The position numbers and the translations under genes are program-made. From contig JAKAMQ010000002.1 of the NCBI GenBank assembly GCA_021812805.1, forward strand, positions 1 to 52,675: DNA of 52,675 nt. Direction: 5' to 3'. Positions 34-49,626 of the stretch are shown piece by piece (the stretch's first letter is position 1; each line of letters begins with the position of its first letter). Source of the stretch: Acidobacteriota bacterium (GTDB lineage Bacteria; Acidobacteriota; Holophagae; Holophagales; Holophagaceae). The notes beneath the pieces were generated by a model. The model saw only the letters and a list, made by a program, of their open reading frames with translations. It had not been told where the DNA came from and did not search any database.

Positions 34-36
34 CCT

Positions 37-130
37 GAACGAGGGGGGACCGCCTGCTCCCCTTCGGCTCGCGATGTCCCCCCTCGTGCACCCCCACGTA
101 GTGTCCCGGCGAAGCCGGGACACTACGTCT
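37..130 (+). repeat. Double-hairpin intergenic repeat, copy 1
   Basis: CGAGGGGGGAC (40-50) pairs with GTCCCCCCTCG (76-86); second perfect 15-bp stem ACGTAGTGTCCCGGC (96-110)/GCCGGGACACTACGT (114-128), loop GAA. Related copies at 29164-29216 and 48374-48468. Confidence 0.9.
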
Positions 131-28251: not shown

Positions 28252-29163
28252 ATGAGCCTGATGTGTGACGCGACCGACGCCCTCCAGCCCCTCCTGAAGA
28301 CCGGGACCCATCGCTTCGATCACCTCCTCGCCTGGATGGACCGCACGGGCTGGGCGCGCCTGGAGCACCTGGCCATGGTGGCGGGCGCCTGCCTGGCCAT
28401 CCTGTGGAGCGTGAAGCTCCTGTCCCACGCGGTCCGCAAGGCGGTGGACGATGGCGACGACAGCACCACCTCGGACGCGGAGCGCCGGGCGGAGACGCTG
28501 GGTTCGGTACTCAACAACACCGCCCGCATCCTGGCGGTGGTGTTCTTCCTGCTGATGACGCTCCAGGAGTTCGGCGTGAACATCGGTCCCCTGGTGGCCG
28601 GGGCCGGCATCGCGGGCGTGGCCCTGGGCTTCGGCGCCCAGAGCCTCGTGAAGGATGTGATCAGCGGGTTCTTCCTGCTCATGGAGAACCAGTTCGGCGT
28701 GGGCGACATCATCAGCGTGGATGAGAAGCATACGGGCACGGTGGAGCGCATGACCCTGCGCGTGACCCAGATCCGCGATGCGGAAGGCAGGGCGCACTTC
28801 ATCCCCAATGGCTCCGTGGTGCGGGTGGTGGTGCTCTCCAAGGAGTTCGCCCGGGCCCAGGTGGATGTGGGCGTGGGCTATGACACGGATTTCGACGCGG
28901 CCATCGAGCTGCTGCAACGAATTGGACAAAAACTGTCCGAAGAATGGCCGGATCGCGTGCTGGAGCCCACCCAGGTGCTGGGCGTGGAGGCCCTGGGTGA
29001 CAGCGCCGTGACCCTGCGCACCCTCACCAAGACGGCGCCGGCGAAGCAGTGGGAAGTGGCGCGGGAACTGCGGAAGCGCATCCTGCTGTCCTTTCGGGAG
29101 GCGGGCATCGAGATTCCCTATCCGCAGCAGGTGGTGCGCCTCCGGCGGGATCCGGAGGGCTGA
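28252..29163 (+). CDS. Mechanosensitive ion channel, MscS family
   Basis: FGVNIGPLVAGAGIAGVALGFGAQSLVKDVISGFFLLMENQFGVGDIISV, HFIPNGSV. ORF also has an upstream start at 28234. Confidence 0.93.
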   Translation: MSLMCDATDALQPLLKTGTHRFDHLLAWMDRTGWARLEHLAMVAGACLAILWSVKLLSHAVRKAVDDGDDSTTSDAERRAETLGSVLNNTARILAVVFFLLMTLQEFGVNIGPLVAGAGIAGVALGFGAQSLVKDVISGFFLLMENQFGVGDIISVDEKHTGTVERMTLRVTQIRDAEGRAHFIPNGSVVRVVVLSKEFARAQVDVGVGYDTDFDAAIELLQRIGQKLSEEWPDRVLEPTQVLGVEALGDSAVTLRTLTKTAPAKQWEVARELRKRILLSFREAGIEIPYPQQVVRLRRDPEG

Positions 29164-29216
29164 TATGAACGAGGGGGGACCGCCTGCTCGCCTTCGGCTC
29201 GCGATGTCCCCCCTCG
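29164..29216 (+). repeat. Double-hairpin intergenic repeat, copy 2 (second hairpin diverged)
   Basis: CGAGGGGGGAC (29170-29180)/GTCCCCCCTCG (29206-29216), 25-nt loop differing from copy 1 at one base. Confidence 0.9.
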
Positions 29217-47328: not shown

Positions 47329-47706
47329 TTGCATGAAGATGCTGAGATTGCATCTTGGAATCTGGAGGCTGGTGTGGCCCTCAGCCTGGATCCCCACACG
47401 ATGCTGCCGCTTTATCCGGTGCAGCCGGACCGGCAGCCGACCTATCCCAAGGCGCTTGGGCCGGTCTTCGTCGGCAATCCGCTCCGGCTGGTTCCTTTCG
47501 CTCAGGCCACTCCTTCGCAGGCCACGCCTGCTGCGGTGGGCCGGTTCCGGCCGCAGGGGATGGCGGCGCGCCCGGCCCAGGCCTCCGCCGGACCGTCCTA
47601 CCTCCAGCCGGCCCCGACGAAGACCTCGACCTCCAGCACCACGACGCTCGGCACCACGACCCTCGGCACCACGACCCTCGGCACACGGCTCGACGTGCTG
47701 GCCTGA
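47329..47706 (+). CDS. Hypothetical protein with C-terminal TTTLG repeats
   Basis: ORF in an otherwise unassigned gap; start uncertain (TTG 47329, or GTG near 47374). Ends in (TTTLG)x3. Confidence 0.4.
   Translation: MHEDAEIASWNLEAGVALSLDPHTMLPLYPVQPDRQPTYPKALGPVFVGNPLRLVPFAQATPSQATPAAVGRFRPQGMAARPAQASAGPSYLQPAPTKTSTSSTTTLGTTTLGTTTLGTRLDVLA
47638..47682 (+). repeat. 15-bp tandem microrepeat, 3 units
   Basis: accacgacgctcggc / accacgaccctcggc / accacgaccctcggc. Confidence 0.85.
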
Positions 47707-48304: not shown

Positions 48305-48373
48305 GGGGACTCCTTCCAGAGGTCGGGTGATTCTCACACGGGTGCGGGTGTGGGATGTCACACGTCTGTTCAG

Positions 48374-48468
48374 ACCTGGTGTCCCGGCTCGGCCGGGACA
48401 CCAGGTGGGGGTGCACGAGGGGGGACGTCGCGAGCCGAAGGTGAGCCGGCGGTCCCCCCTCGGCCCTG
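48374..48468 (-). repeat. Double-hairpin intergenic repeat, copy 3
   Basis: CGAGGGGGGAC (48416-48426)/GTCCCCCCTCG (48452-48462); second perfect 15-bp stem acctggtgtcccggc (48374-48388)/gccgggacaccaggt (48392-48406). Confidence 0.9.
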
Positions 48469-49626
48469 TCAGGGCCGCAGGAGGGTCGCCCGCAGGGCGG
48501 CGGCCAGCGCCTCCACCTCCGCCGGGTCCAGGTGCGCCCCGGTGGTGATCCGCAAGCGGGCCGAACCCTCTGGCACCGTGGGGGGCCGCACGGCGCGCAC
48601 ATCGAAGCCGAGCGCCTGGAGGCGCCCCGCGACCCGCATGGCCTCGGCATCGGGGCCAATGGGCACGGGGATGATGGCGGAGGGCGCATCCGGGTGCCCG
48701 AGGGCGGCCCGGAGGTGGCGGGCGTGGGACAGGGCCCGTTCCCGGCGCCAGGGTTCGGTCTGGGCGAGGTGGACCCCGGCCAGGGCCGCGCCCACGACCG
48801 GCGGGGGCAGGGCCGTGGAGAAGATGAAGCCCCGGGCGGTGTTCACCAGATGTTCCCGGAGGCTGGCCGGGGCGCAGACGAAGGCGCCGAAGCTGCCCAG
48901 GGCTTTGCCCAGGGTGCCCATCACGAGGGGAATCCGTCCATGGACGCCCTGGTGCTCCGCCAGGCCCGCGCCGGTGGCGCCCAGGAGGCCGGTGGCGTGG
49001 GCCTCGTCCACGAGGAGCAGGGCCCGGTGGCGCTCACAGAGCTCCAGCAGCCCCGGCAGATCCGCGGCATCCCCATCCATGCTGAACACGGAATCGGTGG
49101 CCGCCAGGGCCAGGGCCTCCGGCGGAGCCGTGGGGTGCCAGGCCGCGAGGCGGTGGTCCAGGTCCGCCAGATCCAGGTGGCGGTAGATGTGGACCGAGGC
49201 GCCGCGGGCCTTGGCCATGCGGCAGCCGTCCACCAGGGAGGCGTGGTTCAGGGCATCCGAGAAGACCGCGTCACCCGGTTCCAGGAGGGCGGGAATCAGG
49301 GTGGAGTTGGCCTGGAAGCCCGTGTTGAAAAGCAGGCAGGCCTCCGCCCCCTTCCAGGCTGCCAGGGCGGCTTCCAGGCCATCGTGGAGGGGCGTGGTGC
49401 CCCGCAGCAGCCGGGCCGCGCCCGTGCCGGTGCCGAAGCTCCGGGCGGCCTCGGCGGCCGCCTCGGCCAGGCGTGGATCCCGGCGGAGGCCCAGGTAGTC
49501 GTTGGAGCAGACGTCCAGGCCCGCGGGGGGAGCGATGACCCGGTCCCGTCCCTGCTTCTGCCGGAGCACCGCGGCCGCCTGCAGGCGGTCGAGCCAGGGG
49601 AGGGGAATCGGGGCATCGGAGGCCAT
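48469..49626 (-). CDS. bioF: 8-amino-7-oxononanoate synthase (AONS-type PLP enzyme)
   Basis: VCSNDYLGLRRDPRL, FGTGTGAARLLRGTTPLHDGLE, FSDALNHASLVDGCRM, LLVDEAHATGLLGATGAGLAEH, GTLGKALGSFGAFV. Confidence 0.93.
   Translation of the reverse strand: MASDAPIPLPWLDRLQAAAVLRQKQGRDRVIAPPAGLDVCSNDYLGLRRDPRLAEAAAEAARSFGTGTGAARLLRGTTPLHDGLEAALAAWKGAEACLLFNTGFQANSTLIPALLEPGDAVFSDALNHASLVDGCRMAKARGASVHIYRHLDLADLDHRLAAWHPTAPPEALALAATDSVFSMDGDAADLPGLLELCERHRALLLVDEAHATGLLGATGAGLAEHQGVHGRIPLVMGTLGKALGSFGAFVCAPASLREHLVNTARGFIFSTALPPPVVGAALAGVHLAQTEPWRRERALSHARHLRAALGHPDAPSAIIPVPIGPDAEAMRVAGRLQALGFDVRAVRPPTVPEGSARLRITTGAHLDPAEVEALAAALRATLLRP

Follow-up and report, generated by a model that had tools for sequence, protein, structure and literature searches.

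Why should a hairpin begin at exactly the same short distance behind the stop codons of genes that have nothing in common? The question is raised by the window, a 52,675-nt stretch of a 2.9 Mb Geothrix metagenome-assembled genome (G000; 242 contigs, 88% complete), in which an earlier note had reported three copies of a double-hairpin repeat. The genus, of the phylum Acidobacteriota, is indicated by named records that share the hairpin. All three are present, each consisting of a TGA stop codon, exactly 6 nt and the first stem, and all three carry the constant 25-nt loop with CTTCGGCTCGCGA that had been claimed. The stem-loop pattern is matched three times in the window against 0.01 expected, and a chance origin of the three copies is excluded. 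The genes upstream are mutually unrelated: the first, its body on contig C170, is without a match in Pfam, the second encodes an mscS-like channel and the third a bioF-like aminotransferase.

Copy 1, on the plus strand, follows the TGA stop of the first gene (31–33), and the same TGA occurs with no element in the ortholog of G019, a 99% complete Geothrix genome. Its spacer CCTGAA (34–39), of a YATNAAC type common to unrelated loci, is the 5′ end of the element. It is followed by hairpin 1 (40–86; 11-bp stem with arms at 40–50 and 76–86, and the 25-nt loop), by hairpin 2 (96–128; a covarying 15-bp stem with arms at 96–110 and 114–128) and by the right end CTGA (129–132). Apart from one mismatch, window bases 1–135 coincide with the end of contig C170, so that the assembly breaks inside copy 1. 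Copy 2, also on the plus strand, begins behind the TGA of the mscS-like gene (29161–29163), with hairpin 1 at 29170–29216 and a degenerate hairpin 2 after it. The hairpin had been correctly placed at this position, but its bare 53-nt extent did not hold, as pairwise alignment with the empty G019 site gives 107 bp of inserted DNA from 29164 to approximately 29270. Copy 3 lies on the minus strand behind the TGA of the bioF-like gene (48469–48471), with hairpin 1 at 48416–48462, hairpin 2 at 48374–48406, which shows compensated pair differences relative to copy 1, and the right end CTGA at 48370–48373.

The window copies are part of a family of mobile double hairpins that is large, confined to one lineage and anchored to stop codons. 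Exact matches to CTTCGGCTCGCGA number 38 in G000 against 0 for the reversed control, and a 22-nt extension of the loop motif, with up to three mismatches allowed, is found 110 times, the reversed control giving none; by pattern matches G000 has 110, G019 58 and the other Geothrix congeners 0–4. The covariance model and genome search proposed in the earlier note revealed a large dispersed family, present in 42 of 47 Geothrix genomes, with copy numbers per genome (all lower bounds, as no more than 84 or 42 candidates were scored) of at least 84 in G000, at least 76 in G019 and 0–29 in the remaining Geothrix. Several other G000 contig ends also fall at elements, as does the one in copy 1, and copy numbers in this genome are therefore underestimated. 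Counts jump between sister species, from 0–7 in congeners to at least 36 in G078, and from 0–5 to at least 34 in G092 (again lower bounds); these jumps are lineage-specific bursts. Across the class, the repeat occurs in 7 of 18 genera, all from the bacterial family of Geothrix, and the covariance model found it in none of the 16 genomes from other families of the class. Viral contigs, phages and plasmids gave no match to the repeat, and no paper describing it was found in the open-access literature. Two loop-pattern matches in Rokubacteria (L118, L131) were set aside as chance, their sequences being without the G-rich stem.

Derived from 40 copies, the unit reads TGA-CATGAAC-GAGGGGGGAC-25 nt-GTCCCCCCTC-GTGCACCCCCAC-GTGGTGTCCCGGC-CAA-GCCGGGACACCAC-GTCTGA, a double hairpin of roughly 100 bases that is often found in tandem. 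Hairpin 1 is almost invariant within G000, while hairpin 2 is variable yet still paired, with changes on both sides in 7 of its 15 pairs. Over the whole structure, we counted 27 two-sided cells against 5.6 in shuffles. When further members of the family are compared, covariation extends to the outer pairs of hairpin 1, where 57 of 66 are paired, compared with 27 after shuffling. This covariation fits RNA hairpins and single-stranded DNA hairpins equally. No Rfam family was found for the unit, either at gathering score or with E up to 5. G000 holds 186 elements at 142 sites, with 2–4 units at 33 of them, and the tandem period is exactly 99 nt in 41 of 44 spacings. Units adjoining within one array carry the same spacer variant, which indicates duplication in place. 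In G000 and genus-wide, hairpin 1 also occurs with another type of loop, CGCCCGG-CGCTTCGCG-TCCTCTGCG, and then has a strong inner stem (L003, L032:6686, L171, L294).

Copies 1, 2 and 3 are all absent from the orthologous positions of G019, and the family is therefore mobile. For example, where the G019 mscS ortholog (96% protein identity) reads GGGCTGATCAGGG, the window reads GGGCTGA-107 bp-TCAGGG, a clean insertion between TGA and TCA with neither target duplication nor deletion seen at this site; a hairpin stands at the mscS stop in 1 of 30 Geothrix genomes. At this empty site (L340) the mscS stop runs straight into TCA (TGATCA), which seems to be the stop of a gene converging from the opposite strand. 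Besides the three window copies, 24 further copies of G000 are missing from G019. When G000 sites were compared with about 1.5 Mb of G019, 27 were empty and 23 filled, one reverse-strand artefact being left out. The spacer is missing from empty sites and thus arrives with the element. A fixed 3-bp target duplication was rejected, as several single-copy sites have unlike triplets on their two sides; a 2–3 bp duplication is possible at sites with TGA on both sides. The empty orthologous sites and the dispersed copies bear out the mobile, REP-like hairpin family that had been suggested.

How regular is the position behind stops? In G000, the distance from stop to GAGG is exactly 7 nt at 67 of the 105 scored sites with a sense upstream gene, the others being scattered, so that the enrichment at +6 on which the earlier note had staked its proposal is found genome-wide. 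A smaller peak at 2 nt from the stop is due to the TGA that the element itself contains in CATGAAC. Over all sites, the stop-anchored share is 75 of 138, or 56 of 133 with a stricter, cruder gene caller; sites exactly at a sense stop amount to 42–64% depending on gene calling, gene ends having been called by a codon-score script and not by a published gene finder. Copies near stops are almost always in sense orientation. The stops at the exact distance are TGA in 70 cases, TAA in 5 and TAG in 0 (326, 29 and 124, respectively, for long ORFs), and C precedes the TGA at 55 of 70 anchored sites against 322 of 717 background TGA stops (p = 6e-8); the left flank has the consensus YTGA-CATGAAC. Sense stops account for 51 of 88 TGA-flanked insertions and for 117 of 596 available TGAs, a stop-codon share about three times that expected. 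A minority of sites have CGA, GGA or TGC in place of TGA at the left. Of the 73 hairpins scored in other Geothrix genomes and in relatives, 47 lie 6–8 nt behind a stop, TAA and TAG included, and the related hairpins of other Geothrix follow TAA in 12 of 49 cases and TAG in 2 of 49.

Age makes little difference to this position: stop-anchored sites are 15 of the 27 young ones, filled since G000 and G019 diverged, and 15–16 of the 23 old ones (p = 0.57, the old sites entered as 16 of 24). As anchoring to stops is no rarer among young sites, long-term selection is not needed to explain the position. The empty ortholog carries TGA at 12 of 15 young stop-anchored sites, and in two or three cases the TGA of the filled site corresponds to TAG or TAA in the empty ortholog; here either the stop has drifted or the element brings its own GA. 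The anchoring points to insertion 3′ of YTGA rather than to selection alone, and a YTGA insertion preference is its most likely cause. The 6-nt spacing is constant because the spacer is the element's own 5′ end and insertion prefers (C/T)TGA, and many copies probably lie at sense stops because genes here end in TGA more often than in any other stop and an insertion after it spares the reading frame. A TGA preference alone is insufficient for the three-fold excess at stops; purifying selection against 5′-UTR insertions, or a wider target, must be added. Of the explanations offered earlier, targeted integration is supported as a preference for (C/T)TGA, mostly that of a stop codon.

We consider it probable that the element is a mobile palindromic repeat of a non-autonomous, REP/MIRU-like kind, which is proper to the bacterial family of Geothrix and inserts 3′ of YTGA. 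We postulate that a unit of the form [YTGA target]-CATGAAC-hairpin 1-linker-hairpin 2-GTCTGA would insert in one orientation immediately 3′ of (C/T)TGA, without visible target duplication, the fixed 6-nt spacer at sense stops belonging to the element; units would then amplify in place to give the 99-nt tandem arrays. The mobile form may be a single-stranded hairpin, processed at CTGA by a putative HUH-like or other enzyme. The cleavage site of IS200/IS605 and RAYT systems is chosen by a short tag that lies 5′ of a hairpin (PMC8266576), and the likeness of the repeat to these systems is meant as a working analogy and not as a claim of membership. More tentatively, the elements might form a class of their own, mobile hairpins that seek out stop codons; their mover would be a non-Y1/RAYT enzyme for which CTGA serves as both cleavage site and target, and hosts would tolerate them since the target is a stop codon.

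A different account, which we think possible though rather unlikely, takes the element as a selected 3′-UTR RNA module: a hairpin 6 nt after the stop would stall or help terminating ribosomes, or protect the mRNA 3′ end, copies having spread by chance and been retained only where the spacing works. The near-constant sense orientation and the fixed spacing fit such a module, and certain sites persist in many Geothrix species, whether the stop is TGA, TAA or TAG. Stem covariation in both hairpins also fits, although a DNA-level mobilisation step or palindrome correction can maintain pairing as well. Against this, insertions are stop-anchored already when young, copies per congener range from 0 to over 80, and the flanking genes are unrelated. 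The module finds a parallel in E. coli, where translation is reportedly down-regulated by REPs located no more than 15 nt from a stop, a position held by only about 11% of the REPs in that species (PMC12306157). The repeat shares with them a hairpin near enough to meet the terminating ribosome, but roughly half or more of its sites are that close, and at one fixed distance. By analogy, a hairpin so close to the stop may possibly affect translation termination or mRNA decay as a by-product of insertion behind YTGA, which remains the reading we prefer.

It is doubtful that the elements are transcription terminators or terminator-linked. They do place strong GC-rich hairpins directly behind genes, and U-tract terminators seem rare here (25 of 910 stops in a simple scan). 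However, a U-tract follows the hairpin in 0 of 74 elements, in agreement with the earlier statement that this is not a standard U-tract terminator. A co-directional gene comes next in 39 of the 74 stop-adjacent elements, close to background, with no enrichment at operon ends seen, and at one site a canonical terminator is kept downstream in filled and empty genomes alike.

Slimmer still is the chance of a GTAG-type REP or BIME mobilised by RAYT, an explanation already disfavoured. GTAG REPs, REPINs and BIMEs are high-copy extragenic palindromes found mostly downstream of genes (PMC3733652, PMC8266576). The repeat resembles them as a small, strongly folded palindrome in many extragenic copies, with a conserved tetranucleotide beside the hairpin and a tendency to cluster. 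It differs in that its tag is YTGA, 6 nt from the stem, no GTAG or close variant being found next to the palindrome; in that each unit joins two unlike hairpins, head-to-tail; and in its precise stop-codon anchoring. Nor was a RAYT found: Y1_Tnp (PF01797) is absent from both G000 (88% complete) and G019 (99% complete), and RAYT (NF047646) is below cut-off or absent in nine high-copy genomes, the E. coli control being positive. The genome-wide searches thus extend what had been noted for the window, that no transposase accompanies the repeat. We therefore retain the earlier comparison with REPs and BIMEs for the mobile, REP-like hairpins, but not for the defining features of GTAG REPs that were examined, as no GTAG tag and, in nine high-copy genomes, no RAYT above cut-off was found.

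RAYT/Y1 was also rejected as the mover on wider grounds, being absent from both expanded Geothrix genomes, while 15 Y1 loci from other Geothrix genomes are not flanked by units (14 have no stem motif in their flank, and a related motif flanks one). The single exception, L085, carries the G-run/ACCGCC stem motif on the minus strand. Three genomes (G020, G067 and G093) have several identical copies of a Y1 (IS200-like) transposase and few or no copies of the repeat, so that Y1 and the repeat do not track each other.

Other known elements agree less well. CGTC-tagged REPs resemble the repeat in being palindromic and without a dedicated transposase, but they have 8–9 bp stems with 4–5 nt loops (PMC3733652), whereas the repeat has stems of 11 and 15 bp and a first loop of 25 nt, with no unpaired CGTC tag, the CGT of its right end sitting within the stem. 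A MITE, with its terminal inverted repeats and target-site duplication, does not fit either, as the ends are different hairpins and the mscS site shows no duplication. An integron attC was rejected because, despite the resemblance of YATNAAC to the RYYYAAC core, the repeat has no matching GTTRRRY and its copies are dispersed, and SECIS/UGA recoding because hairpin-less orthologs end at the same codon and TAA and TAG also occur.

Judged from sequence features, the behaviour of the repeat appears closest to that of MIRUs and REPs, the features tested not establishing membership in either. MIRUs have a DTGA target, and the repeat is likewise a tandem-repeat unit scattered over the genome, which inserts at TGA and is oriented as the gene. 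Shared as well are the tandem arrays of roughly 100-bp units and a flanking reading frame that survives. MIRUs have been described as short, dispersed and apparently mobile repeats that lie at codon boundaries, oriented as the gene (PMC12548453). Each MIRU contains a small ORF that is coupled to the gene after it; the conserved features recognised in the repeat are two GC-rich hairpins, with no ORF among them, and its anchor is the stop upstream rather than the downstream start. The family offers a natural case, complete with empty sites, of a mobile repeat landing precisely at stop codons. With it, two questions become testable: by what means REP-like repeats spread when no transposase can be recognised, and whether fixed-distance hairpins behind stops are neutral passengers or modifiers of translation termination and mRNA decay. 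It also cautions against taking every hairpin next to a stop in a gene-dense genome for a regulatory element.

Two further kinds of repeat were noticed. Behind the stop of an hlyD/cusB-like gene in other Geothrix species (L316, L318, L319, L324, L329, L337 and L338) lie unrelated hairpin repeats beginning CAGCTGTCAGC and CTTCAGGCTTCAG, which indicates that several repeat families use that spot. Within the window, positions 47636–47684 hold a tandem array of a 15-bp unit, GCACCACGACCCTCG, in 3.3 copies with a 97% match, unrelated to the double-hairpin repeat.
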